From a virus, in the IMG/VR virus record IMGVR_UViG_3300032053_000078, positions 1-60,386 of that record: a stretch of 60,386 nt of DNA. One strand, given 5' to 3'. Shown piece after piece: positions 11,993 to 33,292 of the stretch. How positions within the stretch are numbered: the first letter of the stretch is position 1; each line of letters opens with the position of its first letter. The notes beneath the pieces are model-generated. The model ran no database searches and had not been told where the DNA came from. It saw nothing but the letters and a program-made list of their open reading frames with translations. Both the position numbers and the translations under genes were made by a program.

Positions 11993-14900
11993 TCACGCAG
12001 CCCGCACCGAGTTTTTCAACCGCAACTTCCGCACAGCCGCCTCCCCCGCCGCGACACCCACAGTGTTCCCGAGGGTCTTGGCCCACAGATCATCGGTCCC
12101 CGGCGGCGGTTCCACCACCACGTTGATGACCACACTGTCACCGTTGGCGTTGACACCCGCACGACCCGCCGCGCCCGGAGCGGCTTCCCCCCGAGCGATC
12201 TGAGCGGCAGCCTTCGCCTCTCCGGCTTGCTTCGCCTTGTCCGCTGACAGAGCTTCCTTGTCCTGCTTCTCCTTCAACGCCTTGTCCTGCGCGATCTGCT
12301 GAGCCGCAGTGGTCAGGTCCTTCTTAGTCTGAGCGTCAGCCGCCTTCTGCGCTGCCGCCTTCGCTTTCGCGTCGGCCTTCAACTGCTTGTTACCCGACGC
12401 GATCCCACTGCCCGCTGCCGCCTTCGCTTGCGCCAGACCGGCGGCCTTAGCGTCGTCGATGCGTTTCTTGTTGGCCGCCTCGATCTTGGCCTGCCTCGCC
12501 GCTTCGTTATCCGCCGCACCCGGCTTCTTCTTCTTGGGGTCGAGCTGTGCCTGCAAAAGCTTGATCTGTCGCTCGATCGCGTTCGCCGCTTGGGCGTTCT
12601 TCGGAGTCTGCGCTTTGAGATCCCTGATCTGCTTCTGAATCGCGGCCTGCTGAGCTTTGTGGAGCTTCGCAGCGTCATCCTTCGCTTTCTTCGCTGCGGC
12701 CTCCTTCTCGTCGATCGACATTTCATCGAGACTTTTCTTCTTCGACTTGGGCTTCGGCTTGTCATCCTCCGCGGCCTCCTTCCTTGCGCCCTTCTTCTTC
12801 GGTGCCTTCTTCTTGTCGACCTTGTCAGCCACATCCTTCTCGGCCTCCGAGCCGCCTTTGAGGAGTTCGATGTTGACACCCGGGATCTTGTTGACCTGCT
12901 CGATGATCCAGTTCACCGCGTCGATCAAACCCTCTTTCAATCCCTCCCACATGCCCTTCGCGGCGCTACCGATCTTGGCTCCAACCCCGGTGAAGAACGA
13001 CAAGAGACCGGAGATGATGGTGTCCGCCTGTTCAACAAGCCAGTCGAACCCGTCTCCCATCCACTCGACCAGCAACCCACCAAGGTCGCCGAGCCAACCG
13101 ACGATCTCCATTGGCAACCCGCCCAACCAAACAGTGAGGTCGAGCAGCGCCGACGGGCCTTCGGTGACAAGCCACACGATCGCGTCCCAAAACCACTGGA
13201 ACAACGTCGCGCCAAGGTCGCCGAGCCAGCCGAGGATTTGGAGTTCCAAACTGCCAACCCATATTGCGAGATTGACAATGATCCCGGGTAGCGAGGTTGT
13301 CAACCAATCGAACCCGGCTTTGGCCCAACCCCACAACAGACTGCCAAGGTCACCCAACCAGCCGCCGATCTTGGTGCCAAGACTTGTGAACCAGTTATAC
13401 AAACCGACGACAGCGGTGTCGAGAGTCTTGATCGCCCAGTCGAACGCGTCGTACAACCACCCCCCGATCTCGTAGCCGAGAAACCCGAGACCACCGATAA
13501 TCAACCCCGGGATAGCCGCTATTCCGAGGAGGACGAACGCGATGATCTCGCCCCAGTTGTTGCCGAGCCAATCCCATCCGGCCTTCATCCAATCGAACAA
13601 CACCGAACCAAGGTCGCCCAACCAGCCGACGATTTTCATGGGGATGCTGATGAGGAACGACGCGAGACCGACGAGCATCCCCGGCATCGAAGTCACCAAC
13701 CAGACGAACCCGTCAGCGAGCCAGCCGACCAACGTCAACCCGATGTTGCCCAACCAACCAAGGATCTTCACGTCCAACCCGATGATGAACGACGCGAGAT
13801 CCACGATCATCCCGGGAAGGTTCGTGACCAACCAGACGAACCCGTCGAGAAGCCAACCAACCAACGTCAACCCGATGTTGCCCAACCAACCGAGGATCTT
13901 CGCGTCGATCCCGATGATGAACGAAGCGAGGTCGCCAAGCATCCCGGGAAGGTTCGCGACCAACCAGTCGAACCCGGTCGTCACCCAACCGACGAGCGTC
14001 GCCCCGATCGGACCGAGCCAATCGACCAGCTTCCCCGGCAACGCCACGAAAAACGCCTTGACCGACGCGACGATCCCGGGGAACGCAGCGGCGAGAGCGT
14101 TGAAAGCGTCGACCACCCACTTGATGAGGTCCGGCCCGAACTTGTTGCCGAGGTAACCCACCAGCAGCAACGGGAGACCACCCATCAAAGTGAGTACGCC
14201 GCCGATCACGACCTTCCAGTTGTCCGACACCCACTGCCACGCCGACTTCATCCACCCGAGCAGCATCACGCCAAGGTCACCGAGCCAGCCGGGTATCTTC
14301 AACACGAAGTCCAGAAACATTTGACCGGCAGCCGCGAGCAGCCCGGGGCCGTTCGCCACCAGCCAGTTGACGCCCTCCATGATCCAGCCGCCGAGGTTCG
14401 AGCTGAACGAAACCACGTTGTCCCATATCCCAGCCAACGCGTCACCGATAGCGTCACCGATCGCTGCAAGCGCAGCGCCGATCGCCGCAAGGTCGAAACT
14501 GCTGATGGCGTCCCACAGGTCAGCGAACAACCCGGCGGCGCGCTTCACCACCGGGATGATCGTGTCGTTCACCACGGCTGACAGATAATCGAACGCGGCG
14601 ATCAGCCCGTCTTTGACGGCCCTCACCACCGCATCGACGGCGTCTTGGAACCACTTGAAGTGGGTGTATGCCTTCTTGAAAGCGACGATCACCAAAGCCA
14701 CACCGGCCGCGATCGCTACGAACGGGGCCGCAGCCAACAACGCCGCTCCGACGAGACCGATCAGCGAAGAAGTGATCCAGACAATCAACCCGGCGAGCGC
14801 CCCGAGAGCGGCGAGGATCGTCGGGCCAGTGAGGATCGCCAACACTGTCGCCACCCCAGCGAACACCGCTTCGGGGTTCGCCGCTACAAACGTCTTGACC

Positions 14901-16603
14901 GCGCCGACAACAGTGTCGAACACAGATTTGATCGCGTCGCGCACCGGTTGGAGCGCGGCCCACAAGTCGGTCGCCGCCTGCCCGATGCCCTGTAGGAACT
15001 GCACGATCTCGAACCCGAGCTTCACCTGTCCGATCGACTTGAAGAAAGCGACGATCGCCCACATCGGACCCATCCCTGCGTCCAACGCTTCCGACGCCTT
15101 CTTGAACGCCGTGCGGATCTCGTCGAACACCACCCACACCGGGTGAGCGATCACGAGGAACGCGTTGAACGCGTCAGATAGGACGCCGCCGACGAGCTTC
15201 GCTATCGCTGCGACCGGGGCCATGACAGCTTGAACCGCCACCCCCAACCCGGCGAACACAGCCGACGCGATCGGTTCGACCACGTTCTTCAACTGGTGAG
15301 TCATCACTGTGAGCTTCGAGTGCCAGTTCGACGCCGCCGCCGCAGCAGCGTTGATCGTGTCACCTCCGCTCTGGATGACCTTTGTCGTCTCCTGATATTG
15401 CAACCCGTTAGCGAGGATCGCCGCAGCAATCTTCGGTCCGGCCATCGGCCCAAAGTTGGCGTTCGCCATCTTGACTGCCGCTTCGTCTGACGTTTTCCCA
15501 GCTTCCTTTACCGCTGCCGAGATTTGATCCCACCGCTCGCGAGTTGATTGACCCGGGGGTGCTTCGCGGGCGACTTTCATCAGCGCCCGCTGCATGACCA
15601 TGCCCTTCAACCCGACCTTCGTCAGGCCGCCAATGATCGCCGAGGTCTCGTCGATGGCGAACCCGGACGCCTTGAACGTCGGCCCCACTTGCTTCATCTG
15701 CGACAGCAGATCGTTGGTCGTCACGCCCGTAATCTGCGAGACCCGTTGGAACTTGTTGAGCTGTTCCTCTTGGTCCTTCGTCGCCACCCGGAAGTTGTTG
15801 AAGATTTGAGTGGCCTTCTCGACCGTACCCGACACGCTGTCCTTGTTGATGCGGGCCATCTTGATGAGCTGGAGGCCGAGATCCTGCGCTCCCTCACCAG
15901 TCAGATTGAGGCGTTGCTTCAGCGTGACCAGCGTCCCCGAGACTTCCTCCAGCGACGCTGGGGTCTTGGCGAACAGGTCCTTAGTCGCCTCCTCCAAGCC
16001 TTTCAGCTCAGTGCCGGTCGCCCCCGCCCCGACACGCGCCTTTAGAAAGGCTCCCTCGTATTCCTCGCCCAACTCAGGGAGAAACTCGACAACGGATTTC
16101 AACGCCTCGATCGCTAGTTCGACGCCCGCTTCAATCCCGTCGGCAAGCAACGTCCCTAAAGCGACCGAGGTGATTATGTCGGCAAGCCCCGAAACGTGCT
16201 CACCACCTTCGAGTTCGAGATCAGCCAACGACGCCTTCGCAGTGTCGACACCGTCGTCGATGGCTGTCAACGAATCGGCGGCCTGTTCCGCCCCCGAAGC
16301 GATCGCGTCAGCGATCCCATCAGCGCCCTCGCCGACGCTCTCCAACGAGGCAGACATCTCGTCAGACGCCGCCGACACCGAGTCCGCAGCCGACGTAGCA
16401 GCCGTAGAGATAGCGTCCTCCAACGCCGACCCGATGTCTCCCGCGCTTGCCTCCATCGCGCTTGACATGTCCCCGGCAGCGGCGTTCACCGCCGACACGG
16501 CATCGTTGAGCGCGGGGCCGAGTGCCGCTTCGAGCATCGAAGCGAACTGCTCGAAGTCCGGTTCGATCGTTACCGACGCCGAACCGACTACGTCATCAGC
16601 CAT
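11993..16603 (-). CDS. Tape measure protein
   Basis: At 1536 residues it is the longest tail gene and lies directly after the chaperones and neck protein. Residues 170-330 (KARVGAGATGTELKGLEEA to GLTKVGLKGMVMQRALMKV) match the conserved TP901-type tape measure core. The middle holds many hydrophobic helices and repeated GWLGD/GWLGN modules (about residues 770-1200). Residues 1270-1480 are Lys/Ala/Glu-rich and coiled-coil-like. It sets tail length and is probably ejected with the DNA. ATG 16603 is 1 nt after the stop of the neck gene. Confidence 0.92.
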   Translation of the reverse strand: MADDVVGSASVTIEPDFEQFASMLEAALGPALNDAVSAVNAAAGDMSSAMEASAGDIGSALEDAISTAATSAADSVSAASDEMSASLESVGEGADGIADAIASGAEQAADSLTAIDDGVDTAKASLADLELEGGEHVSGLADIITSVALGTLLADGIEAGVELAIEALKSVVEFLPELGEEYEGAFLKARVGAGATGTELKGLEEATKDLFAKTPASLEEVSGTLVTLKQRLNLTGEGAQDLGLQLIKMARINKDSVSGTVEKATQIFNNFRVATKDQEEQLNKFQRVSQITGVTTNDLLSQMKQVGPTFKASGFAIDETSAIIGGLTKVGLKGMVMQRALMKVAREAPPGQSTRERWDQISAAVKEAGKTSDEAAVKMANANFGPMAGPKIAAAILANGLQYQETTKVIQSGGDTINAAAAAASNWHSKLTVMTHQLKNVVEPIASAVFAGLGVAVQAVMAPVAAIAKLVGGVLSDAFNAFLVIAHPVWVVFDEIRTAFKKASEALDAGMGPMWAIVAFFKSIGQVKLGFEIVQFLQGIGQAATDLWAALQPVRDAIKSVFDTVVGAVKTFVAANPEAVFAGVATVLAILTGPTILAALGALAGLIVWITSSLIGLVGAALLAAAPFVAIAAGVALVIVAFKKAYTHFKWFQDAVDAVVRAVKDGLIAAFDYLSAVVNDTIIPVVKRAAGLFADLWDAISSFDLAAIGAALAAIGDAIGDALAGIWDNVVSFSSNLGGWIMEGVNWLVANGPGLLAAAGQMFLDFVLKIPGWLGDLGVMLLGWMKSAWQWVSDNWKVVIGGVLTLMGGLPLLLVGYLGNKFGPDLIKWVVDAFNALAAAFPGIVASVKAFFVALPGKLVDWLGPIGATLVGWVTTGFDWLVANLPGMLGDLASFIIGIDAKILGWLGNIGLTLVGWLLDGFVWLVTNLPGMIVDLASFIIGLDVKILGWLGNIGLTLVGWLADGFVWLVTSMPGMLVGLASFLISIPMKIVGWLGDLGSVLFDWMKAGWDWLGNNWGEIIAFVLLGIAAIPGLIIGGLGFLGYEIGGWLYDAFDWAIKTLDTAVVGLYNWFTSLGTKIGGWLGDLGSLLWGWAKAGFDWLTTSLPGIIVNLAIWVGSLELQILGWLGDLGATLFQWFWDAIVWLVTEGPSALLDLTVWLGGLPMEIVGWLGDLGGLLVEWMGDGFDWLVEQADTIISGLLSFFTGVGAKIGSAAKGMWEGLKEGLIDAVNWIIEQVNKIPGVNIELLKGGSEAEKDVADKVDKKKAPKKKGARKEAAEDDKPKPKSKKKSLDEMSIDEKEAAAKKAKDDAAKLHKAQQAAIQKQIRDLKAQTPKNAQAANAIERQIKLLQAQLDPKKKKPGAADNEAARQAKIEAANKKRIDDAKAAGLAQAKAAAGSGIASGNKQLKADAKAKAAAQKAADAQTKKDLTTAAQQIAQDKALKEKQDKEALSADKAKQAGEAKAAAQIARGEAAPGAAGRAGVNANGDSVVINVVVEPPPGTDDLWAKTLGNTVGVAAGEAAVRKLRLKNSVRAA
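13690..13915 (-). repeat. 132-bp direct repeats in the tape measure gene
   Basis: Near-identical DNA at about 13725 and 13857 has a period of 132 bp, encoding 44-residue units such as KILGWLGNIGLTLVGWL. More diverged copies continue on both sides to about 13000 and 14400. Such units are typical of tape measure helices and could change tail length by recombination. Confidence 0.7.
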
Positions 16604-17931: not shown

Positions 17932-18459
17932 TCAGATGCAGCACGGTGCCATTTCAAGTTCGACGTGGAGCGTCCACCCGGCGCAGCCGCCCTTGGGCGA
18001 GATCGGGTCCATTGTGCCTATACGCGCCTTCAACGGTTCACCACCGAACGTGGTCCCGTCATACCCCGAGAGGTCACCCATGATGCAACAGAACAACTTG
18101 ATCGCATCCATCTCCAAGTTCGCCGCTGCAATGTCGGACTCCGACGATGGCGGGAACGGTTTGTACGCCGAGTCCTTCAACGTCGGCCAGCACGGCCGGT
18201 ACAACCGGATGGCGACCTTCGCTACCGGGACCAGCTCCCCGCAGTTTGTGGGGCCACCCCACGCCCCCGGGAACCCTTTGGTTGCGTGGATCGACTCCAA
18301 CCAGACGTACAGGCCGTCGCAACAATCGGCGGGGGGAGCGCCGTGGTACAACCCCGACTCGGCGGGGGCACCGGTAGGGGTGTCAGTGAGGCACGCGATT
18401 GAGACGTCCAACAACCGGGTCAGCATCGACGGCAGGTAGCTGACGTCTTGGATTGTCAT
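17932..18459 (-). CDS. Head-tail connector / tail terminator-like protein, 175 aa
   Basis: ATG 18459 (MTIQDVSYLPSML) overlaps the adaptor gene's stop (ATGA). The protein is cysteine-rich, with ADCCDGLYVWL, FCCIMGD and CAGWT segments, as is often seen in actinophage connector proteins. Its place directly after the head-tail adaptor points to a stopper or tail terminator. The specific assignment is inference from order. Confidence 0.6.
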   Translation of the reverse strand: MTIQDVSYLPSMLTRLLDVSIACLTDTPTGAPAESGLYHGAPPADCCDGLYVWLESIHATKGFPGAWGGPTNCGELVPVAKVAIRLYRPCWPTLKDSAYKPFPPSSESDIAAANLEMDAIKLFCCIMGDLSGYDGTTFGGEPLKARIGTMDPISPKGGCAGWTLHVELEMAPCCI

Positions 18460-19337
18460 GTGAACTCTCTGTATTGCGGCGACTTGTCCATTCGTCGAAC
18501 CGTTGACCGTCGCGGGATCTTGCCCGGGTTGACCGACGCCAACCACAGGTCAACCTCATAGATCCCAACCCGGCCACCTTCGTCGAGGAACGTCAACGGG
18601 TCAGCGAACGACATGGAGATCCCCTCACGGGTGACCGTTTGGAGACGCTGCGGGAGGACGCACCCGTCGGCGTTGCACATGAACTTCGCGATTTCACAAG
18701 CGAACCGTGCCGTCGCTGACAGCCCCGACTGGTCAGGTATCCGACCGTACGAGTACGTCACCTGCCAAGTCCCGTCCTTCGACCCGTCGTTCGGGGCGAG
18801 ACCGTACGGGGCGGAACTGACAGCCCGGTTCTGAGTGCAAGGCCACTGCAACCCGTCGAAGCGAACCAACCGGCGGTACTGCTCGACGCCGTACAACGTC
18901 GGGTCGAAGATTTCACCGTCGATCACGACTTGGGTGACGCTCCCGACCGGCATCGGGAGGAGGACCGATGGCAAGTTGCACTGCCCGGCGCAACACGAGT
19001 TGAAGTCGAACCATTCGCCGTCGATCCGGTATGGCTGATTCGGGAACGCCCACCCACCGGCAGCGGCGTTCCACAACGAGTACGTCCACCCGCCCATCGG
19101 CCACTGCAACCATGCGTCGCCGCCGCAGCCGCAACCGTCGCCGTAACACGGGCGCACCGTGCGCGAGCAGATCCCCGGGTACTGCCGTCCCGACAGACGG
19201 AACAGGATGTTCGTTGCCATGTCCACAGCCTGTTGAAGCTCGGTAGCGTTCGGCGGGTCAGCCAACCCTGAGCAGCACGCTTGGACGTCGGCCGGGGTGA
19301 TCCAGTCACCGCAAACACCGGAGGTAGGGGCAGCCAC
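18456..19337 (-). CDS. Head-to-tail adaptor
   Basis: 293 residues. The N-terminus (ITPADVQACCSGLADPPN, LFRLSGRQYPGICSRTVRPC) is the characteristic actinophage head-tail adaptor pattern, with a helix set followed by a Cys-rich insertion (GDGCGCGGD). Start GTG 19337 lies 6 nt after TAGCAT, so a leaderless transcript is possible. The gene opens the tail module after a terminator-like hairpin and the inserted early block. Confidence 0.85.
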   Translation of the reverse strand: MAAPTSGVCGDWITPADVQACCSGLADPPNATELQQAVDMATNILFRLSGRQYPGICSRTVRPCYGDGCGCGGDAWLQWPMGGWTYSLWNAAAGGWAFPNQPYRIDGEWFDFNSCCAGQCNLPSVLLPMPVGSVTQVVIDGEIFDPTLYGVEQYRRLVRFDGLQWPCTQNRAVSSAPYGLAPNDGSKDGTWQVTYSYGRIPDQSGLSATARFACEIAKFMCNADGCVLPQRLQTVTREGISMSFADPLTFLDEGGRVGIYEVDLWLASVNPGKIPRRSTVRRMDKSPQYREFT

Positions 19338-19390: not shown

Positions 19391-19657
19391 TCACGACCAC
19401 GGTTCGGGATGGGCGCACGCCTCACAAGCGCGCATCGTTGTGGTCGAGTGACCGCCGTACCCGGGGTCGAACGGATCGGAGACAGGTTCAACCGGGCCAA
19501 CCGTTGAACACAGGTCGCACGACGCGACCCAACGCAACAGCGACGGGTCCCCCTGATGGATCTCGATGGCCTCGTCGAGGTCGTCGACCCATCGGGCACC
19601 TTCGGTTGGGTCAGCGAACTTGTAGGCGACAGCGCCTTTCGGTGGTGGGGTTGTCAT
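19391..19657 (-). CDS. Small zinc-ribbon protein, 88 aa
   Basis: Starts MTTPPPKGAVAYKF at ATG 19657 (ATGA overlap). Two CxxC pairs, SCDLCSTVG and ACEACAHPE, frame a 30-residue segment, as in a zinc ribbon. Its N-terminus resembles that of the next upstream gene (MTTPPPVGFVPY), so the two share a leader sequence or are partial duplicates. Last gene of the unit from promoter 20501-20529. Function unknown. Confidence 0.65.
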   Translation of the reverse strand: MTTPPPKGAVAYKFADPTEGARWVDDLDEAIEIHQGDPSLLRWVASCDLCSTVGPVEPVSDPFDPGYGGHSTTTMRACEACAHPEPWS

Positions 19658-19983
19658 TCTTGCTTTCCTTCCCGGTTGGCGAGTTCTGCTTTCCGGCTGG
19701 CGAGTTCTTCCGGGCTGTGGTGTGGCGGCCACGGCTTCTCGGTGTTGGCGACGATCCAGTCGATCGCCTCTTGGCGTTTGGCGAACTTCGGTCCCATCAC
19801 ATCGGGTTGCCCGGTGTAGGTGAGCCACGCCGACCATTGCCCGTCGGGCATCCGTCTTGCTGTGCCGAGGTCGCTGTCGCGCTTCCACCCGGCGAACGAC
19901 AGGACAAGCCACGCCGCTTGATCGCCGCGGCCGAGGCGTTTGAGTGTGTAGGGAACGAAACCTACTGGCGGTGGAGTTGTCAT
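19654..19983 (-). CDS. Hypothetical protein, 109 aa
   Basis: Starts MTTPPPVGFVPYTLKRLG at ATG 19983, 2 nt after the upstream stop. A beta-rich first half with WLVLSFAGWKRDSD and WSAWLTYTGQP, then a helical, charged tail (EELASRKAELANRE). Not recognised. The MTTPPP start is shared with the following gene. Confidence 0.65.
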   Translation of the reverse strand: MTTPPPVGFVPYTLKRLGRGDQAAWLVLSFAGWKRDSDLGTARRMPDGQWSAWLTYTGQPDVMGPKFAKRQEAIDWIVANTEKPWPPHHSPEELASRKAELANREGKQE

Positions 19984-19985
19984 GG

Positions 19986-20309
19986 TCACACCTCGTTCGC
20001 GTTCGACCAGCATGACCGGCACACTTCGAGGTACTCGGCGGGTTCTTCCATCGTCTGCCGCCGGACCTGTTCCGACGTGAGGGTGTCGGCCTTGACGTCA
20101 GCGCCGCACACCTCGCACTCGCCGTACTCGACGATCTCCAACTCGCCACCCCACATCGGGGCGGGGCTGTGGTCGTCGTCGTCGAAGTCGACGAAGATCC
20201 ACTGGCCTCCGACGTCGTCGCGGACGGAGTCGACGATCCCGGTCTTGCCGTGAGTCGTCGTGTGGGTTGCGGTGACAAGGATGTGGTCGCCCACATAGAA
20301 CTTGCTCAT
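19986..20309 (-). CDS. KOW-like plus zinc-ribbon small protein, 107 aa
   Basis: Residues 1-55 (KFYVGDHILVTATHTTTHGK, TGIVDSVRDD) look like a small SH3/KOW-type barrel. Residues 65-100 carry CEVCGADV and CRSCW, a zinc ribbon. ATG 20309 overlaps the upstream stop (ATGA). A nucleic-acid-binding role is plausible but unproven. Confidence 0.65.
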   Translation of the reverse strand: MSKFYVGDHILVTATHTTTHGKTGIVDSVRDDVGGQWIFVDFDDDDHSPAPMWGGELEIVEYGECEVCGADVKADTLTSEQVRRQTMEEPAEYLEVCRSCWSNANEV

Positions 20310-20467
20310 GCCTTCGCCTCCTGATCCGAGATGATCGACACCATGTAGCCGAGGTATTCCAGATTGGAGCGGAGCACGATGGCGTCCTTGATGGTGAGTC
20401 CGGCGCGGACCTTGGTCAGATCGTTGGCGTCGGTGTAACAAACTTTGTAAGTCGGGGTGGTGGTCAT
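20306..20467 (-). CDS. Small protein, 53 aa, first gene of an early unit
   Basis: ATG 20467 is preceded by the conserved leader AAGGAGCACCACC. Product: MTTTPTYKVCYTDANDLTKV and a short helix-strand end. Too short for the usual ORF cut-off if the upstream extension is ignored, but promoter, leader and ATGA coupling to the next gene make it convincing. Function unknown. Confidence 0.7.
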   Translation of the reverse strand: MTTTPTYKVCYTDANDLTKVRAGLTIKDAIVLRSNLEYLGYMVSIISDQEAKA

Positions 20468-20500
20468 GGTGGTGCTCCTTCTTCCTTGCCCTACACCTAA

Positions 20501-20529
20501 AGTGTAGCACCACGCACTACGATAAGCAA
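20501..20529 (-). promoter_or_regulatory. Sigma70-type promoter with CTACAC-N5-GTGTAG operator
   Basis: TTGCTT (20529-20524), 17-bp spacer, TACACT (20506-20501). The inverted repeat CTACAC-N5-GTGTAG at 20491-20507 overlaps the -10 and start site exactly as at 1171-1187. Drives four coupled small genes down to 19391. Confidence 0.7.
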
Positions 20530-20534
20530 CCCCG

Positions 20535-20738
20535 TTAGTCCTCGGGCAACCGCAACGACTCCGCCAACTCCGCGATCCTCGCCCGCATCGCATCACCCGA
20601 GATATGCCGCGGAACCTTCCCCGACAAGATGTCCTCCGCCTGCTCCGGCGTCCACCCCACCCGCACCAACGCCGACGCCACACACCCCGGCTCGCACTCG
20701 TCATCCGGCCCGACGCCGCAACCCGCACAGGATTTCAT
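20535..20738 (-). CDS. Small Cys-rich protein, 67 aa
   Basis: I chose ATG 20738 (MKSCAGCGVGPDDECEPGCV) because GGGGGGC precedes it; a longer ORF from 20807 would cross the inverted repeat. Cysteines at CxxC, C and C in the first 20 residues suggest a zinc site; the rest is helical (TPEQAEDILSGKVP). Its start codon lies inside a TGAAATC motif. Confidence 0.6.
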   Translation of the reverse strand: MKSCAGCGVGPDDECEPGCVASALVRVGWTPEQAEDILSGKVPRHISGDAMRARIAELAESLRLPED

Positions 20739-20755
20739 CGTGCCCCCCAACGAAC

Positions 20756-20821
20756 CGGACGGCCAGCGGTGCGACCCTCCAGAGCACCACCCCGAGAGAG
20801 GACACATTCACTGGCCGTCCG
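20756..20821. repeat. 11-bp perfect inverted repeat with 44-nt loop
   Basis: CGGACGGCCAG (20756-20766) and its exact complement (20811-20821) lie in the gap between the SSB gene and the 67-residue gene. As RNA it would form a long hairpin just before the ribosome binding site of the downstream gene. It could be a terminator, a translational control element or a protein site. Confidence 0.55.
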
Positions 20822-20841
20822 AACCCTGAGCATAGCCACGC

Positions 20842-21378
20842 TCACCGCAGCAACCGTTCCGGGTACGACCCGAAGATCCCGGGCTGCCAATCAGCAGCCG
20901 ACACCACAAACGGCTCCTCCGCTGGGAGGTGCGCTGTCCGAGCCGCCGCCGAACGCGGTGCCGGAGCTGCCGGTCCCGTGTCGAAGTCCGGTTCCCGACC
21001 GAACGACCCGCCGCCCACCTTCTCGTTCCGGGTGATCGCCGCGGTCGCCCACTTCAAGTCAGCGCCAACCGCTTCCGCGACCAACTCAACCTTCGACCGG
21101 TTCCCACCAGACTCCTTGTCCTCCCACGTCTGCTGATCCAACCGGCCCATCACGATCACCCGGTTCCCTTTCGACAACGTCTCAGCCACGTTCTCACCGA
21201 GCTTGCCCCAAGCGATCACATCGAAGAACGACACCTTCTCCTCCCACTCGTCGCCCTTCTGCCAACGCCGGTTCACCGCCAACCCAAACTTCGCCAACGC
21301 CATCCCCGTCGGGGTAAACGCCAACTCCGGGTCTCTGGTCACGTTCCCCACGATGGTCACACAGTTGTCAATCGCCAC
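20842..21378 (-). CDS. ssb: Single-stranded DNA-binding protein
   Basis: Residues 1-105 are a clear SSB OB-fold: NCVTIVGNVTRDPEL, LAKFGLAVNRRW, VSFFDVIAWGKLGENVAE and GNRVIVMGRLDQQTWED. The C-terminal tail is Gly/Pro/Ala-rich but lacks the usual acidic DDDIPF end (it ends in ERLLR), so contacts with host SSB partners may differ. GTG 21378 overlaps the HIRAN gene's end. Likely replication or recombination role. Confidence 0.93.
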   Translation of the reverse strand: MAIDNCVTIVGNVTRDPELAFTPTGMALAKFGLAVNRRWQKGDEWEEKVSFFDVIAWGKLGENVAETLSKGNRVIVMGRLDQQTWEDKESGGNRSKVELVAEAVGADLKWATAAITRNEKVGGGSFGREPDFDTGPAAPAPRSAAARTAHLPAEEPFVVSAADWQPGIFGSYPERLLR

Positions 21379-21787
21379 GAGTGGCCTGCCTTTCGTTGTC
21401 GAATGTCACCAAGATTTCAAGCCCCGGCTTGTCGAGATGTTCAGGGTCAACCAGCACAGCGGACACCGCCGCCGTTGCCGCCGACCCGCCGTCGATGCGA
21501 GGTGCCCACCGGGCGGCCAGATCCTTCGGGACGTGACCGACGAACCCGTGACGACCCAACAGCGGAACATGAACCTCGATCGCGTTAGCGTCGTACTCGT
21601 TGTCAGGGTTGCGGACCAGCAGCACCGCAGGCATCACCGGGGTCTCGTCGAGATCGTCGAACGACGACGCCGACTTGATCGCCTCAACCCGAGACGCCTC
21701 CACAGCATCAGCAACAGCGAGCAGCGTGGCCGGGTACCCGGGGCGGAACGTCAACCCCACAACCTTCACCGACTGGGCGTCGGTCAC
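21368..21787 (-). CDS. HIRAN-domain protein
   Basis: 139 residues that are essentially one HIRAN domain: VVGLTFRPGYPATLLAV, then LLVRNPDNEYDANAIEVHV and RHGFVGHVPKDLA, the family's 'N.yD..Ai.V' and 'vGyvp' landmarks. HIRAN domains recognise DNA 3' ends in Rad5-type helicases; a free-standing phage copy next to SSB suggests a recombination or replication-end function. Start GTG 21787 (GTGA overlap). Confidence 0.82.
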   Translation of the reverse strand: MTDAQSVKVVGLTFRPGYPATLLAVADAVEASRVEAIKSASSFDDLDETPVMPAVLLVRNPDNEYDANAIEVHVPLLGRHGFVGHVPKDLAARWAPRIDGGSAATAAVSAVLVDPEHLDKPGLEILVTFDNERQATRGD

Positions 21788-22731
21788 TGGTCGACCTCCA
21801 ACCAGCCGAGCACAGCGAACACCGTTTCCTCATCCCACTCGCGAGGATCGGACTTCCCGTCAACCCCCAAAGATTTCAGAAACGCCGCGTACAACTTTGC
21901 TTCCTCAGCGGTCAGCCCTGCGGCCAACTCGATCAGCGTGTCGACCCGTTCCGCCAGACCAGATGTCTCACCGGCAGACGATTCGGCGACCGGGGGTTGC
22001 GCCCCCAACACCACCGCCTGATCCACCAACATTCGGGCATCAGCCTCAGTCGCAGGTTTCGTCACCCTCAACCCGTTCGACTTCGCCCACGCCGTCAACT
22101 CAACCGACCGGGAACCCAACCCGTTGATCTCTTTCCGCAGCTCCGACAGCGTCGCGTCCGACGGCGGGAGCAGCGACGGGTCGGCGTCGGTCACGTCGGC
22201 CTCGACCACCGAACTGTCCGAAACCTCAGAGTCAGGGGCGTTGCTGTCATCAGCGGATGTCGCTTCGGGGTCGCGCTTCCCCGCCGCTTCCAACGCCCTC
22301 TCCGGTTGCGCCGCAGCGATCGCCACCTGAGACGTACCCGCGCCGATCGCCCGGATCTCAGCGTCACGTTGACGCCACACCACCAGCGCCTTCAAGTCGG
22401 TCATGTCGTCGGGGTACCCGGCGCGCTTCAACGCCCGCCCCAACGCTTTCGTGCAAAGAATGTTCCACTTGTCCGACAGGTGGTCGAGCGAAGCGTCGCC
22501 GCCGCGCAACTTCGACTCGACCGGCTTGTAACCGACCACCGGGCGACGACCGGACCCCTCGGGGAAGTTGATCGTCGCCACACAGAACTGGCCTCCGCCG
22601 CCGACCTTGGCTGGGATGCCCAGCTCCGACCCGGGTGCCTCGTGGAAGTCGACCCACGCCCCCGGATGATCGTCCAAGGCGAGACCCCATCGGAGACCCG
22701 GGCTTGCGTACGTCGGACTAAGAGCAGCCAT
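21784..22731 (-). CDS. Phage DNA-metabolism-associated protein, 315 aa, unknown
   Basis: ATG 22731 (MAALSPTYASPGLRWG) has GTGGAG at 6 nt; the TTG at 22755 is weaker. Residues 80-120 (DKWNILCTKALGRALKRAG) form a conserved-looking block that I remember from other actinophage genes without a name. The middle is acidic and disordered; the C-terminus is helical. It is coupled to HIRAN and SSB, so a role with single-stranded DNA is likely but not shown. Confidence 0.65.
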   Translation of the reverse strand: MAALSPTYASPGLRWGLALDDHPGAWVDFHEAPGSELGIPAKVGGGGQFCVATINFPEGSGRRPVVGYKPVESKLRGGDASLDHLSDKWNILCTKALGRALKRAGYPDDMTDLKALVVWRQRDAEIRAIGAGTSQVAIAAAQPERALEAAGKRDPEATSADDSNAPDSEVSDSSVVEADVTDADPSLLPPSDATLSELRKEINGLGSRSVELTAWAKSNGLRVTKPATEADARMLVDQAVVLGAQPPVAESSAGETSGLAERVDTLIELAAGLTAEEAKLYAAFLKSLGVDGKSDPREWDEETVFAVLGWLEVDQ

Positions 22732-22769
22732 CAGGATCTCCACTCGATTCGGCAACTAAGGCAACTACT

Positions 22770-22798
22770 ACTGTAGCAGTTCACACGACAGATGTCGT
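22770..22798 (-). promoter_or_regulatory. Promoter for the SSB/HIRAN unit
   Basis: ACGACA (22798-22793), 17-bp spacer, TACAGT (22775-22770). The -35 is imperfect. The -10 matches that of the promoter at 55924-55952. A GCAACTA direct repeat follows the -10. Confidence 0.5.
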
Positions 22799-22805
22799 CA
22801 GGATT

Positions 22806-23258
22806 TCATCGGGTGACGACGTGGACGTACACCCGTTCCTTGCACAACGGGTCGGCCAACCGGGGGGCGTCGCCGGGGTTCCCGGCGAGCAACGCCTTCA
22901 CCAACCATCCGGCGTCACGCAACCCGACCAGCGCCGCGACCAACGCCCGATCCCGGGCGGCGACGGAGACCAAGTCAGGAGCCGACGGCCACGCGGTCTG
23001 CGGTAACCCCAACCGGTCAGCGTCCGCAGCAGCCAAAGCCGCAGCGCCGCGACCAGCAGTGTGCATCACGAGACAACCTTGCGGGAGAGCCGCCACAGCA
23101 GCCCTCAGCGCCTCCCATTCAGCTTCGGCTTCTTCCCGCCGCACAGCGACGACAGCGGCCAGCTCGTAGGGCACAGGGCTGCCGTCAGGCATCGTGGACG
23201 GATCAGCCCACCAGTCCGGGCCGTCGACGACAACAGCGGTCAACCGTTCCTCGGTCAC
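22806..23258 (-). CDS. Possible SLOG / DUF2493-like protein, 150 aa
   Basis: The central region LPQGCLVMHTAGRGAAALA, RLGLPQTAWP and AARDRALVAALV resembles the nucleotide-binding core of YspA/DUF2493 SLOG proteins (usual pattern: VvhGgArGaD, lGipv..yPadW, RN..M). The first glycine pair is altered. Start GTG 23258 (GTGA overlap). Its TGA stop is part of a TGAAATC motif. Family link is tentative. Confidence 0.5.
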   Translation of the reverse strand: MTEERLTAVVVDGPDWWADPSTMPDGSPVPYELAAVVAVRREEAEAEWEALRAAVAALPQGCLVMHTAGRGAAALAAADADRLGLPQTAWPSAPDLVSVAARDRALVAALVGLRDAGWLVKALLAGNPGDAPRLADPLCKERVYVHVVTR

Positions 23259-23434
23259 TCCCGCCCAGCCCGGATTTCAGCGTCCCACTTCGCGACGTAC
23301 GCAGCCTCCTCGATCTTGCGGTCGGGATGGTTGTCGAACGCCCGGGCCGCCTGCTCTACCCGGCACCGGTCAGCGATCGACAGGTTCGGCAGGAGACGGA
23401 CCACACTGGCGCGCTTCTTCTGCTCGTAGTTCAC
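23255..23434 (-). CDS. Small protein, 59 aa
   Basis: GTG 23434 follows GGAGGAGGTGAC, an excellent ribosome binding site, so the longer ORF to 23590 is rejected. Product NYEQKKRASVVRLLPNLSI and a helical charged end. GTGA overlaps at both ends couple it to its neighbours. Function unknown. Confidence 0.65.
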   Translation of the reverse strand: MNYEQKKRASVVRLLPNLSIADRCRVEQAARAFDNHPDRKIEEAAYVAKWDAEIRAGRE

Positions 23435-23598
23435 GTCACCTCCTCCGGCCAGATACCGGAGAACGCCGCCGAACGGACCTCCGCTTTCACCAGCTCTGCT
23501 TTGACCTCGGCCAGCTCCGCTTTGAGCCGCTTGATCTCCGCGTGCTGAACATGCAACTTCGCGGTGGCTTCCTCCGCCACCCGTTGCCAACCATCCAT
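23431..23598 (-). CDS. Very small coiled-coil protein, 55 aa
   Basis: A short gene read directly from the sequence: ATG 23598 (MDGWQRVAEEATAKLHVQ) through a heptad stretch KRLKAELAEVKAELVKAEV to TGA 23431. Lies 1 nt after the upstream stop and forms a GTGA overlap with the next start. One long helix, probably oligomeric. Function unknown. Confidence 0.6.
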   Translation of the reverse strand: MDGWQRVAEEATAKLHVQHAEIKRLKAELAEVKAELVKAEVRSAAFSGIWPEEVT

Positions 23599-23599
23599 G

Positions 23600-23842
23600 T
23601 CATGCTTCCTTTCGGTGGGCGCGGGCGATTGCCTCGCGGAACTGTGTCTTGCGTGCGACCGCCAACGAGTCGGCGGTGAGCTTCGGGGGATTCGGGGCGA
23701 GGAAGTCGAACAGCGCCACCAGCGGTGCCGTCATGTTCGTCTCGCTGAGCAAACCCGGGTCGACGATCTGCTGCCAGTAGAACCGGCCCGGGGTGCTCCA
23801 ACGGAGGTTGAGGATCGGGTAACCGTCGGTGTCCATCGTCAT
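23600..23842 (-). CDS. Hypothetical protein, 80 aa
   Basis: MTMDTDGYPILNLRWSTPG start at ATG 23842, with AAAGGGGC upstream and an ATGA overlap with the preceding gene. Two aromatic strands then a helical end (FREAIARAHRKEA). Not recognised. Confidence 0.6.
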   Translation of the reverse strand: MTMDTDGYPILNLRWSTPGRFYWQQIVDPGLLSETNMTAPLVALFDFLAPNPPKLTADSLAVARKTQFREAIARAHRKEA

Positions 23843-24573
23843 GCCCCTTTCCGGCAGGTCGGGCCGATCCCGAGCTGGCGTGAGATTTCATCGGTCAGGT
23901 GGCGGTTGCAGTGCGAGCAACGACCGATCTCTTGACCGTACAACTGGGCTGCGGCTTCGACCCCGGCCTCGACGATCCGGTCGAGGATCGAGCGGACCCG
24001 GGCGAAGTCCCGAATCGGTGAGTCGGGGTGACCGCCGACGACCATCTTCAGGAAGGTGCGACCGGCCCACTTGCCTTTCTCGGGGCGGTCGACCCGGACG
24101 AACAGCAGGTCGTTATGGCCGCCCGAAGCGACGGCGTAGTAGCCCTCGGGGACGTCGGGGAGTGGGCCACCGGGTGACGGTGTGCGAGGTGCGGCGGCGG
24201 CTTTGGTGACCCGGTGCAGGACTGAGCCGTCGCGGGCGGTCCCGGCGTCGGAGGTGATGACCGCCTCGACGGTGTCACCCGATGCCTTCGTGATCGTGAT
24301 GGTGTCGCCGACGTCCTTGCCGGGGGGGCCGGTGACCAGCCACTCGCCGTCGTACTTGATCCAACGGAAGTTCGGGTCGGCAGCTTTCGCTGCGGCGAGG
24401 ATTTCAGCGATGGCAGCCGAGGCGTCGTTCGAGCTGAACTCGGCGATTGCGGCGGCGGTGTAGTCCTGCGCTGCGGCGAACTCGGGGTTGTCGGCGATCA
24501 GCTTCGTCAGGAACGCGGCCTGCCGCGGGGAGATGGGTCGTCCTTGTGGGATGTGGATTGTGGTGGTGCTCAT
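23839..24573 (-). CDS. DUF6011-like protein with C-terminal zinc motif, 244 aa
   Basis: The C-terminus GRCSHCNRHLTDEISRQLG followed by IGPTCRKG is the cysteine pattern of DUF6011-type actinobacterial/phage proteins (memory). The N-terminal 45 residues (ISPRQAAFLTKLIADNPEF) are also typical. The middle carries a beta domain binding unknown ligand. The ATG at 24573 is 6 nt after TATGAT, with no ribosome binding site, so the mRNA is probably leaderless. Confidence 0.7.
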   Translation of the reverse strand: MSTTTIHIPQGRPISPRQAAFLTKLIADNPEFAAAQDYTAAAIAEFSSNDASAAIAEILAAAKAADPNFRWIKYDGEWLVTGPPGKDVGDTITITKASGDTVEAVITSDAGTARDGSVLHRVTKAAAAPRTPSPGGPLPDVPEGYYAVASGGHNDLLFVRVDRPEKGKWAGRTFLKMVVGGHPDSPIRDFARVRSILDRIVEAGVEAAAQLYGQEIGRCSHCNRHLTDEISRQLGIGPTCRKGA

Positions 24574-24579
24574 ATGTTC

Positions 24580-24608
24580 ATCATAACGTCTAGCCTCACG
24601 ATACGCAA
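24580..24608 (-). promoter_or_regulatory. Promoter producing a leaderless mRNA (start 24573)
   Basis: TTGCGT (24608-24603), 17-bp spacer starting ATCGTGA, TATGAT (24585-24580), then GAACAT and ATG. The predicted transcription start coincides with the start codon. Confidence 0.75.
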
Positions 24609-24615
24609 CCCCGGA

Positions 24616-24987
24616 TCAGGAACCGCCTTCCGCCCGCCCCGCCAACAGCGCAGTCCCCCCCGGGACGTGCTTCCACAACTTGTTCGCCGCCACGATCTCA
24701 GGGAACCCCAACTCCAACCGGGCAAGGTTCGCCTCGTCGAGGAAGATGCACGCGTCGAAGATCCGGTCCAACCCCGACCCCGGCGGATACCCACCTTCAC
24801 GGGCGAACTTGTGCAACGCCTGATTCGCCGTCTTGGTCGAGATCAGGTTCAACCACAACGCCGCCTTCCGCCCCATCTCAGCGTCGACCCGCCCGTCAAG
24901 GTGGACAGCGACGCCTTTCCCCTCATCGACCAGCGAGAGGCTTTGGTCGTCGAGCACTTTGAGCCGGTACAACGGGATCGAGTTCAT
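24616..24987 (-). CDS. Hypothetical protein, 123 aa
   Basis: ATG 24987 (MNSIPLYRLKVLDDQSLSL) is 6 nt after TACGGT and also has GGTGGGG before it, so either leaderless or led initiation is possible. The longer ORF to 25125 would cross the promoter. Helical middle (KAALWLNLISTKTANQALH) and LARLELGFPEIVAANKLW near the end. Not recognised. Confidence 0.65.
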   Translation of the reverse strand: MNSIPLYRLKVLDDQSLSLVDEGKGVAVHLDGRVDAEMGRKAALWLNLISTKTANQALHKFAREGGYPPGSGLDRIFDACIFLDEANLARLELGFPEIVAANKLWKHVPGGTALLAGRAEGGS

Positions 24988-24993
24988 CACCCC

Positions 24994-25022
24994 ACCGTAG
25001 GGAATGACCTCGCGATACACAA
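24994..25022 (-). promoter_or_regulatory. Promoter before 24987
   Basis: TTGTGT (25022-25017), 17-bp spacer starting ATCGCGA, TACGGT (24999-24994), then 6 nt to ATG 24987. Confidence 0.65.
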
Positions 25023-25031
25023 CGTCGGATT

Positions 25032-25775
25032 TCAAGAAAGCGGAGGACGCCTCAACACATGGAGATACGACACGTTCTGCCGGGCGTGCTGCTGGGTCGA
25101 CGGCGTCCGACCCACACCACCACACTCAACGCACTTCACCCAGTTCTCGTCCAGCGCGAACCCGCCGCACCTGCCGCACTTGCGGGTCCGAGGTGGCTGC
25201 GGTCGAACCGACCCAAGGAACACGAACCAGTCCTCCAACCGAAACCCGAAGTCCAACGCCGCTTCCAACGCCAGATACGAGCCGGGGAACAACTTGCCGG
25301 AGCTGACATAGTTCGCCGTCTTGGCAAGCAAGATCCCGCCCGGGCGCAACACCCGCCACGACTCCTGCAACCCGCCTTCGATCATTTCAGCCAACGCCTT
25401 CGGCGACCCCGGCGCATCCTTCAACCCGTACCGCCCGTTGAACTCCTCCAACGTCGACGTACCCCTGCCGCCAACACTCACATACGGCGGGTCGAACGCG
25501 ACAGCGTCGAAGCACCCGTCGCCGTGAGGGAGCTGACGGAAGTCGACGCCGTCACCGTCGATGTCGTGGCAGACCAACTCGTTCGGCTGCCAGTCACGCC
25601 ACCACACCCCTTTGCCGTACGTCGGGTCCAACACCCGGTCCTCCGGGCGGAGGAACCCGAGCGGGACGACACCGCGGGCGATCAGTTCAGCGTTCGACCG
25701 CCACGGGCGAACCCCAACCCCGTCGGGATACCACAGGCCGGTCGCGGTGATGGTCGGGGCGTCGAGGTCGGTCAC
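25032..25775 (-). CDS. DNA methyltransferase (DPPY) with zinc-ribbon insertion
   Basis: A SAM-dependent N6-adenine or N4-cytosine methyltransferase: motif I region VLDPTYGKGVWW (residues 48-59), catalytic FDPPYVS (94-100), and a later WRVLRPGGILLAKT strand typical of class I enzymes. Residues about 198-222 add a CGRCGGF...CVECGG zinc ribbon. No restriction gene is nearby, so an orphan protective or regulatory methylase is likely. GTG 25775 has GGGGGG upstream. The TGA stop lies in a TGAAATC motif. Confidence 0.88.
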   Translation of the reverse strand: MTDLDAPTITATGLWYPDGVGVRPWRSNAELIARGVVPLGFLRPEDRVLDPTYGKGVWWRDWQPNELVCHDIDGDGVDFRQLPHGDGCFDAVAFDPPYVSVGGRGTSTLEEFNGRYGLKDAPGSPKALAEMIEGGLQESWRVLRPGGILLAKTANYVSSGKLFPGSYLALEAALDFGFRLEDWFVFLGSVRPQPPRTRKCGRCGGFALDENWVKCVECGGVGRTPSTQQHARQNVSYLHVLRRPPLS

Positions 25776-25787
25776 CCCCCGAGACTG

Positions 25788-25985
25788 TCACCAAACACGC
25801 GAGCCGCGCACGACGAACGCCCCGGGCTGTTCCACGATCGGTTCAACGGCGACAACACGAAAGTTCCGCCACACCTTGCCGGGGGGGTAACGGTCGGGTT
25901 CCATCGTGACGAACAATGCTTTCGCCCGGCCGTTGCGGATCACCTGCAACAGCGCCGCCCGCTTCTGTTCGGTTGGGTCGGTCAC
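25788..25985 (-). CDS. Hypothetical protein, 65 aa
   Basis: Starts at GTG 25985 (GTGA overlap): MTDPTEQKRAALLQVIRNG. Helix followed by beta strands (ALFVTMEPD, NFRVVAVEP, FVVRGSRVW). Not recognised; sits between a Cys-rich small protein and the methyltransferase. Confidence 0.6.
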   Translation of the reverse strand: MTDPTEQKRAALLQVIRNGRAKALFVTMEPDRYPPGKVWRNFRVVAVEPIVEQPGAFVVRGSRVW

Positions 25986-26305
25986 CCTTCGAGGCGTTCA
26001 AGGTAAGCGGCCTCAGCCTCGTCGATCCACGAGCGTTCGGTGTACGCGGGGCCGTCGCACTTGTGGCCGACGCAAGTGCGCTCACCAGCAGGGACCGGGA
26101 GACCGCAGCGACCGTCGATGCGACCGTCCTCGGTCCAAACCCACACCAGCTCCGAGCAGAGGATCGGTTCGACCTCTCCGTCGTGGAGGTGGGCGACACG
26201 GTTGCCAGCGTCGTCGACCGTCTCGAACTTGACGCCTTGACTGGCGTGATCGGAGAGGATGCCGTGGTTCCAGTCCTGACCGTACATTCCTACGAGTGCT
26301 TTCAT
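25982..26305 (-). CDS. Small Cys-containing protein, 107 aa
   Basis: ATG 26305 is preceded by AGGAGCACCACC plus ACA, a variant of the conserved leader, so the ORF extension to 26410 is rejected. Product MKALVGMYGQDWNHGILSD, then a region with four cysteines (LCSELVW, GRCGLP, RTCVGHKC) that could bind zinc. Driven by promoter 26659-26687 through a long leader. Function unknown. Confidence 0.65.
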   Translation of the reverse strand: MKALVGMYGQDWNHGILSDHASQGVKFETVDDAGNRVAHLHDGEVEPILCSELVWVWTEDGRIDGRCGLPVPAGERTCVGHKCDGPAYTERSWIDEAEAAYLERLEG

Positions 26306-26652
26306 TGTGGTGGTGCTCCTGATTCGCTGTCGGATCTGTTGTCTGCACGAGTGCCTTGATCGAGTTCGGGCCGGGATTTCAGCTTCCCCTACCTTCCCCC
26401 TTCGATGCACCTCCGGGTTACTCTCGGTTCTTCCTACTCGCCCGTTCTCCGCGTTCGCTCACCTACTTGACCCATCCATCCACCACCCTTCGTTCAGGGG
26501 TCGCCCGGCCGCTAAACCGGGGCGTGATCGTTAGCCGTCAGGGGTGGCTTCGTTTGGCGGGCTTGATGGCTCCTCCGCGGTCCCGAACTCTATCGAGACG
26601 CTCGTGCCGATTTCGTTGACCCGACTCCTTCCTGCGGGGGGCTTTCCCCTAC
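26306..26652 (-). promoter_or_regulatory. Long transcribed leader, copy B
   Basis: About 345 nt lie between the expected transcription start (near 26652) and ATG 26305, without a convincing gene. It begins with a strong hairpin (TTCCTG and GGGG pairing with CCCC and CAGGAA), then AAGGAG. The 5' end and a later block (26426-26462) resemble the leader at 56038-56301. A 29-codon frame ends at TAA 26531 but would need a GTC start. Possible regulatory RNA or attenuator. Confidence 0.45.
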
Positions 26653-26985: not shown

Positions 26986-27786
26986 CTAGCTGGCGTTGCT
27001 GACCCCGACGTACGCACAATCTTCGAGCGGATCGGGAAGCGTGGCAACGGTCTGCCATGCCATCGGGCCGCCCGCCTGAATGGCGGTCTGATCGGCGAGA
27101 GTCCAAGCATCAGCAGCGATGCCGTTCGGGAGCACCGGACCAGCGACACCGGTCGGCGTGCCAGCCGGGTCACCACCACCGGGAGTCCACGACGGGAACG
27201 TCGCAGCGGGCCACGACGGGAAGAAGTTGGGGTTGTTCTCCGCGTACCCGGACAGCTCGAACGTGAGCGCATCCTCGTACTTGAACGACACGTCCCCGGT
27301 GATCTCCCAGTTCTTCGTCGTCGAGAGAAGCCACTGGACGTACACCGCGGACCCGGCACCGCCAACGCCGCACTGCGCCCGGTTGGCGTTCTTCGACCAC
27401 ACCTCGATCATCTTCGGGTCGGGAGCGACAGCCGACTTCGACTCGCGAAGCACAGCGCCCTTGAAGTCGCCTGCGGTCGTCGAGTGGAGCAGCGTCGTGT
27501 CGAGCAGCATCTCCAACGCCGTCAGAGGAACACCGCAAAGCATCAGCTTCACGTCGAACCCGAGGAGACGAGGGATGTCCTTGTCACGGATGCAGATTTG
27601 CCCGGCGGCGTTCTTCATCGTGATGTTCGCGCCGTCCTCAGTGTCGGGCGACATGGACATCTCGGTGAACGCAGCGAACTGGATGCGACTGTTGGGGACC
27701 AGCGGGTCAAGAGGGACCCCGCACTCGTTGAGGCGCGTGATACGAACTGCCACGCCTCGGATTGACTGTGGGCAGGAATACGCCAC
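26986..27786 (-). CDS. Major tail protein
   Basis: 266 residues with the actinophage major tail pattern: VRITRLNECGVPLDP at the start, NAAGQICIRDKDIPRLL, FDVKLMLCGVPLTALEML, and a C-terminal NFFPSWPAATFPSW and ending DCAYVGVSNAS. GTG 27786 has GGGAGG at 7 nt. Here it lies upstream of the adaptor and connector genes, opposite to the usual order, with the early block between. Confidence 0.8.
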   Translation of the reverse strand: MAYSCPQSIRGVAVRITRLNECGVPLDPLVPNSRIQFAAFTEMSMSPDTEDGANITMKNAAGQICIRDKDIPRLLGFDVKLMLCGVPLTALEMLLDTTLLHSTTAGDFKGAVLRESKSAVAPDPKMIEVWSKNANRAQCGVGGAGSAVYVQWLLSTTKNWEITGDVSFKYEDALTFELSGYAENNPNFFPSWPAATFPSWTPGGGDPAGTPTGVAGPVLPNGIAADAWTLADQTAIQAGGPMAWQTVATLPDPLEDCAYVGVSNAS

Positions 27787-33155: not shown

Positions 33156-33292
33156 ATGCTTCCTCCCAATCATGGTTCTCGTAGGTACTGGTACTGCGGA
33201 ACCAAGCTGGGCTTGAGACCGTTAGCCCCGCTGGGCGGGACCTTGGGCCGAAGTTTCGCGCACTGTACGACCAGATCGAGGGACCCTCGCTG

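Follow-up and report, generated by a model that had tools for sequence, protein, structure and literature searches.

What does a HIRAN domain do when it is encoded by a small gene of its own, next to genes for a single-stranded DNA-binding protein (SSB) and for a 315-residue protein that matches no Pfam family? This question is raised by the IMG/VR viral record IMGVR_UViG_3300032053_000078, a stretch of 60,386 bases referred to below as the window. A preliminary description of this DNA had placed the three genes in one unit at positions 20842-22731 and proposed that they may form a small recombination or replication-restart module. The coordinates proved exact, with all three genes overlapping on the minus strand, and the SSB and HIRAN identities were borne out, as both proteins score above their Pfam cut-offs. 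The evidence does point to a recombination module, but its core is the pair formed by the HIRAN protein and the 315-residue protein, here named P315. Probably, though far from certainly, P315 is a phage single-strand annealing protein (SSAP) of divergent sequence, with the stand-alone HIRAN protein as its dedicated partner. This reading is based on gene order and coupling, the pairing of P315 with HIRAN, two predicted folds, residue conservation and the content of the neighbouring genes.

The P315–HIRAN gene pair

The HIRAN protein matches PF08797 with an E-value of 1.3e-9 (38.2 bits against a cut-off of 24.7), and the HIRAN proteins of relatives reach 39.2, 43.7 and 41.4 bits. The OB fold of the SSB matches PF00436 at 1.3e-30 (106 bits against 26). 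P315 is read from an ATG behind GTGGAG; a longer version from a TTG at 22755 exists, and the ribosome site belongs to the ATG. The GTG start of the HIRAN gene overlaps the P315 stop by 4 bp, and the HIRAN and SSB genes overlap by 11 bp. The unit is not a chance arrangement, since homologues keep the same three-gene order at loci L027, L028, L054 and L065, and also at L044, with a 431-bp gap before the SSB gene.

The 315-residue protein had been called conserved. This holds among uncultivated phages, where 40 loci were found, but not for the 50,697 phage records searched, which gave no match at E 1e-5 and, in a further search, a single row, at E 9, attributable to chance; with two relatives of P315 as queries, there was none at E 0.1. 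P315 had no match in Pfam and a single row in PHROGs, at E 0.078. Back-translated single-sequence searches with P315, the HIRAN protein and the tape-measure protein had no yield, and the motif KWNxLCTKA had no matches. A degenerate DNA pattern of a guessed conserved helix, KAxGRALKxAGY, picked out 22 stretches in viral contigs, and tblastn found a relative of P315 in every one of them (worst E 1.3e-17). A profile built from aligned P315 sequences yielded 38 viral loci, largely overlapping these 22, and two loci in metagenome-assembled genomes (MAGs) titled Actinomycetes and Gemmatimonadetes; among 396 genomes of the phylum of the MAG G022, it matched only G022 itself. The closest relative, L065, shares 62% identity over 314 residues. 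The first alignment comprised 18 of the 22 motif loci and the window, and a 36-row alignment comprised 35 of the 40 loci and the window, with L042, L049, L052, L058 and L059 omitted as apparent duplicates. Fourteen columns of the latter are invariant, including R14 and K69 and, within the helix at residues 92-106, L92, K95, G98, R99, A100, K102 and G105.

A HIRAN gene follows P315 immediately at 18 of the 22 motif loci, the remaining four being cut at P315, and at 39 of the 40 profile loci, the 40th being cut at the P315 stop; it is thus present at all 39 loci with downstream sequence. Taken as the longest open reading frame, it starts across loci either overlapping the P315 stop or at most 8 bases beyond it. 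In the reverse search, a HIRAN sub-alignment gave 17 loci; P315 lies immediately upstream at the 12 closest of these and is missing from that place at the five most distant. At the loci found, P315 therefore has a HIRAN partner wherever the region is visible; conversely, P315 accompanies the closer HIRAN relatives, but not HIRAN at large. The idea that phage HIRANs generally accompany P315 was rejected, as the profile found P315 at none of eight HIRAN loci of named phages. The DaWorst match H81 (E 2) was likewise discarded, as it runs antisense to the annotated genes.

The view that HIRAN domains usually belong to large helicases holds only in part for phages, in which small stand-alone HIRANs are already annotated in Stenotrophomonas phage DLP4 (gp19) and Roseobacter phage RDJL3; gp253 of Bacillus phage G is another by the match obtained here. 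Like the HIRAN of the window, these proteins are small and lie outside helicases; unlike it, they lack a P315 partner at the eight loci mentioned. The phage G gene (L026:3875-4231) sits between genes annotated as the DNA gyrase B and A subunits.

The loci fall into two clades. The window clade, consisting of the window, L027, L028, L044, L054 and L065, has the SSB gene downstream, so that the SSB is the third gene at only five of the 40 loci. In the other clade, no SSB gene adjoins the pair, which is followed instead by a helix-turn-helix (HTH)/DnaD-like gene along with other small genes. The P315 and HIRAN trees, built from 34 loci and the window, give the same two-clade split (support 0.97 and 0.95, respectively), and their distances correlate at 0.89, a value reached in none of 999 permutations. 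The mean identity of P315 across the clades is about 29%. Among the same-strand neighbours common to both clades (blastp, 1e-6), P315 and HIRAN recur in all six window-clade members; the others are the HTH/DnaD-like gene (L028) and one marginal gene (L054).

Predicted fold and conserved residues of P315

We modelled the window P315, using the 36-row alignment, and a divergent 234-residue relative, L041, with AlphaFold2. The mean predicted local distance difference test scores (pLDDT) were 82.6 and 77.8, and the predicted template modelling scores (pTM) were 0.46 and 0.49, respectively. The N-terminal domain of P315 (residues 8-130) has a pLDDT mostly of at least 90, with a dip at 71-90. In both models, this domain is predicted to consist of a helix (11-21), three strands (26-33, 48-55 and ~65-70), a second helix (~85-103) and then another helix. 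The resulting predicted alpha-beta-beta-beta-alpha core shows the element order i-iii described for the SSAP core (helix, three-stranded sheet, helix lying across it; PMC9870868), an order also present in double-stranded RNA-binding domains.

Fold comparisons placed SSAPs high for both models. With the window model, the best PDB row in Foldseek was the Sak annealase (E 0.11), and the VIA list was headed by the Red-beta tail domain (8tfu, Z 6.2, 65 residues aligned, 3.1 A), with Sak (8pq8, Z 5.3, 90 residues, 3.6 A), RAD52 (8rjw, Z 4.9, 104 residues, 4.7 A) and the Red-beta core (7ujl, Z 4.6, 85 residues, 3.0 A) also present. The L041 model matched Sak (8pq8, Z 6.8, 87 residues, 3.7 A), RAD52 (8rjw, Z 6.4, 81 residues, 3.0 A) and Mgm101 (Z 5.4, 83 residues, 2.9 A), and Red-beta was absent from its VIA list. 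Mgm101 is also among the rows of the window model. Among the top 50 BFVD rows of the window model, 17 are functionally named, and 16 of these are labelled RecT, ERF, Bet, Rad52, recombinase, annealing or DNA repair. A structural search, which the preliminary description had suggested as a check, thus puts Sak and RAD52 among the best rows of both models, but the scores are modest and double-stranded RNA-binding domains (dsRBDs) come nearly level. Clear homology of P315 to an unrelated function was not found, and the fold points modestly to SSAPs.

The conserved helix of P315 can be set against helix 3 of RAD52, in which T148, K152, R153 and R156 are reported to contact DNA (PMC9772228); R153 and R156 are also described as DNA contacts in PMC3823998. 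In four RAD52 rows (one from the window model, three from L041), the alignment ends on a residue pair whose numbers, counted as in the window, differ by 54 (window 105 with RAD52 159; L041 104, equivalent to window 108, with RAD52 162, three times). This offset would place R99 on R153, K102 on R156, T94 on T148 and G98 on K152; R99 and K102 are kept in all 36 aligned sequences, and residue 94 is T or S in 35 of them. The placement has two points against it: five other RAD52 rows (two for the window, three for L041) end two residues further, at an offset of 56, which mismatches R153 and R156 unless a gap falls behind the helix, and the fourth contact, K152, falls on an invariant glycine in the offset-54 register. 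We are inclined to favour the offset of 54, because the sequence motif fits it, with RAL(K)xxG of P315 set against RALRSFG of RAD52.

Working model and rival explanations

The HIRAN domain of HLTF binds 3' ends in particular. HLTF HIRAN structures match the profile of the phage HIRAN family at E 9e-10, and the HLTF segment LQRDPNNPYDKNAIKV aligns with the phage stretch bearing the invariant N63 and D66. In an alignment of 13 of the 18 HIRAN genes and the window, the position of HLTF N91 is invariant (N63) among these 14 phage HIRANs, whereas that of N90 is variable (D62 in the window). HLTF HIRAN was reported to bind single-stranded DNA (ssDNA), a property lost when N90 and N91 were changed, and fork reversal by a HIRAN-less HLTF was restored by a separate purified HIRAN fragment (PMC4666394). 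Because the fragment restored this activity, HIRAN can act in trans.

The SSB of the window had been described as lacking the usual acidic tip. Its end indeed reads YPERLLR, but LPAEEPF is present at residues 151-157, followed by 21 more residues, and thus lies where the relatives end: all five SSB-bearing relatives terminate in D(E/G)(E/D)PF (DEEPF in four, DGDPF in one). An extension or a sequence error in the window record would seem to account for the missing tip. Tail loss as a feature of the module was rejected, as the relatives keep the tip. To our knowledge, the acidic PF tip is common, but not universal, among phage SSBs. The tip may matter for P315, whose residues 185-250 in the window model match 8tfu and 8tg7 (Z 6.2 and 6.0; 65 of 70 and 62 of 66 residues), in a type of helical bundle that scores easily; by their titles, both structures are the Red-beta domain with the SSB C-terminal peptide. 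Since the P315 tail of the window model resembles this domain, a dock for the SSB tail on P315 is a natural model for the window clade. The buried EEPF motif would weaken the predicted dock to the SSB of the window itself, unless the extension is an error or is removed.

Models for SSB, SSAPs, RecA, nucleases and SNF2 were searched at 23 of the 40 loci and in the window, covering 22 virus records (17 of the other clade and five of the window clade). A stand-alone SNF2 helicase, in frames of ~720-800 residues, occurs in all 17 records of the other clade and in none of the five window-clade records, the window included. The records may be fragments, and the members of each clade share descent, so that this contrast is one historical difference. 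The SNF2 protein of L039 (L039:11878-14106) has a HARP match below the cut-off (E 2e-4), and an SSB gene lies elsewhere in five of the 17 SNF2-clade records. A PD-(D/E)XK nuclease matches in three of the five window-clade records. The Pfam models RecT, ERF, Rad52_Rad22 and RecA match in none of the 22 virus records; a single ERF match occurs in G022, on a different contig. That P315 fills an annealase gap in these possibly fragmentary records is supportive only. An HTH_36/DnaD-like gene stands near the pair at 35 of the 40 loci, and a DnaB helicase is encoded within the flanks of L028 and L044. At most SNF2-clade loci, a conserved gene of ~180-209 residues (L039:9087-9674 and equivalents) comes right after HIRAN, with no convincing Pfam match; it had been called RusA-like by eye, a name dropped because Pfam gives nothing.

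In our working model, ssDNA with a 3' end would form where phage DNA terminates or where forks stall, and would be coated by SSB. HIRAN would grip the free 3' end, and P315 would load at the end so held, aided in the window clade by the Red-beta-like tail domain binding the SSB tail. P315 would then oligomerise on the strand through the helix bearing R99 and K102 and pair it with its complement, leading to end joining, concatemer formation or template switching. The HIRAN partner would thereby give the annealase a preference for 3' ends. We infer this annealing, oligomerisation and 3'-end binding, as well as contacts of P315 with HIRAN and SSB. In the other clade, fork reversal may be carried out by the SNF2 protein as a motor of its own, with this HIRAN acting in trans; P315, HIRAN and SNF2 would then together resemble a split HLTF. 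Tentatively, one may go further and see here a previously unrecognised class of phage recombination machinery: the proteins of a new annealase family would be loaded by a HIRAN protein that is dedicated to them and holds the 3' end. This class might exist in two builds, one of annealase, HIRAN and SSB (with the PD-(D/E)XK nuclease in some) and one of annealase, HIRAN and stand-alone SNF2; the second could be the phage equivalent, spread over three genes, of HLTF/SMARCAL1-type fork remodelling.

Several results weigh against P315 being an annealase. All fold scores lie below Z 8, the level at which VIA warns of a merely common arrangement, and unrelated rows stand among the SSAP rows, such as Rv2632c for the window (Z 5.0) and the phage anti-CBASS protein Acb4 for L041 (Z 5.9). 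The Red-beta tail match appears with the window model only, the tail of L041 matching Hsp70 lid and BRD ET bundles, and SSAPs make up only four of the seven functionally named rows in the BFVD top 50 of L041. Searches of P315 and its profile against PDB sequences gave chance-level or helical and coiled matches only, with no SSAP match for the profile. The 36 aligned members, searched against Pfam and PHROGs, have no family in common to more than two of them and no SSAP family in their lists; RecT, ERF and Rad52_Rad22 are absent among the 15 Pfam families listed by any member at E 10. The lack of a curated SSAP match is not decisive, because sequence alignment between the known SSAP classes is nearly absent (PMC9870868). 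Moreover, the beta-hairpin and helix 1 that precede the SSAP core are missing in both models, each of which begins with the helix before the sheet. This hairpin and helix are described as variable in SSAPs in PMC9870868, which reports the hairpin as missing or much extended in Rad59 and SakRad52, and as characteristic in PMC11783212. Since they are missing, we call P315 SSAP-like rather than a proven member. The window record itself has no PF12705 nuclease match. As to the pairing, many loci are closely related, so that 39 of 39 does not represent 39 independent events, and co-linear genes yield correlated trees even without joint function.

The same fold lists contain many dsRBD structures with the same element order, which reach Z 4.5 (window) and 5.8 (L041); they trail the best SSAP rows by 0.4-1.1 and score as high as some RAD52 chains. 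P315 could accordingly be a dsRBD-like binder of double-stranded RNA or DNA for regulation or counter-defence, with HIRAN as a DNA-reading partner and no annealing, but we consider this unlikely. Sak tops the N-terminal-domain rows of both models, the best RAD52 chain exceeds the best dsRBD, albeit by little (4.9 against 4.5 and 6.4 against 5.8), and Sak 8pq8 aligns over 87-90 residues as compared with 60-81 for the dsRBD-labelled rows. None of the functionally named viral rows of the window model is a dsRBD, and the neighbours are an SSB gene, a replication-type HTH gene, helicases and a nuclease.

P315 might instead be a helicase loader or replication-restart adaptor, binding ssDNA and SSB and delivering the DNA to a phage helicase while HIRAN recognises forks. 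In many relatives, the pair comes first in a run that includes the HTH_36/DnaD-like gene, DnaB lies near two loci, and SNF2 occurs in 17 of the 22 virus records. Such a role seems quite improbable to us, in that the DnaD-like neighbour could already play the loader and no replicative helicase was recognised in the scanned subset of window proteins; no loader is found among the fold rows listed, which does not exclude one. Least probable is that the three genes are unrelated early genes sharing an operon, the linkage of P315 and HIRAN reflecting common descent of syntenic phages. The wider gene order is also kept within each clade, so simple synteny accounts for some of the linkage, and the SSB linkage is not constant. 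However, nearly all other same-strand neighbours differ across the clades, while P315 and HIRAN remain adjacent despite the low identity of P315 between them.

P315 as a divergent SSAP would resemble the Rad52-superfamily annealing proteins (Sak of phage 80-alpha, RAD52, Red-beta, RecT, Erf and Mgm101) in its predicted helix, three strands and crossing helix, in the conserved Arg/Lys on that crossing helix, and in the placement of its gene near SSB, nuclease or replication genes. It differs from them in having no detectable sequence similarity, no N-terminal hairpin and helix 1, and a HIRAN partner. Sak4 of phage HK620 was reported to be stimulated by the neighbouring phage SSB, through the last six residues of that SSB (PMC5928155). 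The window clade is similar in that the predicted annealase gene lies beside an SSB gene whose relatives have the conserved C-terminal tail. On the other hand, Sak4 is RecA-like and ATP-dependent, whereas P315 has no Pfam match and the window record no RecA match; the excerpted text of that report does not mention HIRAN. As compared with HLTF, the phage HIRAN keeps the N91 position but is encoded by its own gene, has a variable N90 position and, in the window record, lacks an accompanying SNF2 protein.

Annealase modules are known, while the P315 family and its HIRAN partner are new as far as our literature searches reach: judged by titles and the beginnings of abstracts, none of the papers listed concerns a HIRAN-annealase pair. 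A structural SSAP survey predicts many unrecognised SSAPs and, in the excerpted main text, does not mention HIRAN (PMC11783212). Prokaryotic HIRANs have been called uncharacterised (PMC11090510). Most of what is known of HIRAN comes from HLTF-type fork remodellers, and the pairing with a predicted annealase offers a concrete partner for the free-standing prokaryotic forms. If our reading is correct, an SSAP family has been missed by sequence libraries and may provide new recombineering parts, and phages would seem to encode fork-remodelling tool sets piecemeal, with one gene for each component.

Features and surroundings of the unit in the window

Table 1. Coordinates of P315, HIRAN, SSB and their parts in the window
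Feature	Position	Strand	Basis
P315, predicted divergent single-strand annealing protein, 315 aa	21784..22731	-	Open reading frame with GTGGAG; 40 homologous loci; fold matches
Likely ribosome-binding site GTGGAG of P315	22738..22743	-	Read from sequence
P315 N-terminal domain, residues 8-130 (helix, three strands, two helices)	22342..22710	-	AlphaFold2; Sak, RAD52 and Red-beta matches
P315 helix motif, residues 92-106 (LCTKALGRALKRAGY)	22414..22458	-	36-row alignment; putative placement on RAD52 148-159
P315 acidic linker, residues 135-190, low confidence	22162..22329	-	pLDDT block means 40-69
P315 residues 185-250, helical, Red-beta C-terminal-domain-like (SSB-peptide-binding)	21982..22179	-	8tfu match, window model
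P315 C-terminal helices, residues 254-315	21787..21972	-	Model; best matches POU-type helical domains, Z 5.1
Stand-alone HIRAN protein, 139 aa	21368..21787	-	PF08797 above cut-off
GTGA overlap of P315 stop and HIRAN start	21784..21787	-	Read from sequence
SSB, 178 aa; OB fold 21067-21366	20842..21378	-	PF00436
SSB internal EEPF motif, residues 154-157, then 21 more residues	20908..20919	-	Sequence; comparison with relatives

PHROGs matches identify the structural genes of the window as tape measure (11993-16603), head-tail adaptor (18456-19337), major tail protein (26986-27786), major head protein (31197-33173) and portal (52886-54877). Among the matches listed, those of the portal protein in phage records are mostly to actinobacterial phages, at ~25-33% identity. 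The unit lies within a block of small genes (19654-26410) between the major tail protein and head-tail adaptor genes; besides P315, HIRAN and SSB, this block encodes a methyltransferase-like and a DUF6011 protein. L065 and L027 have counterparts of several genes of the block and of the flanking structural genes. Elsewhere in the window, three very large adjoining proteins (50164-52881, 46607-50164 and 38502-46610) are reminiscent of phage polyvalent proteins; they carry a zeta-toxin domain with a sub-cut-off intein-splicing match, a 2'-5' RNA ligase domain and, in a protein of 2,702 residues, a GNAT domain.

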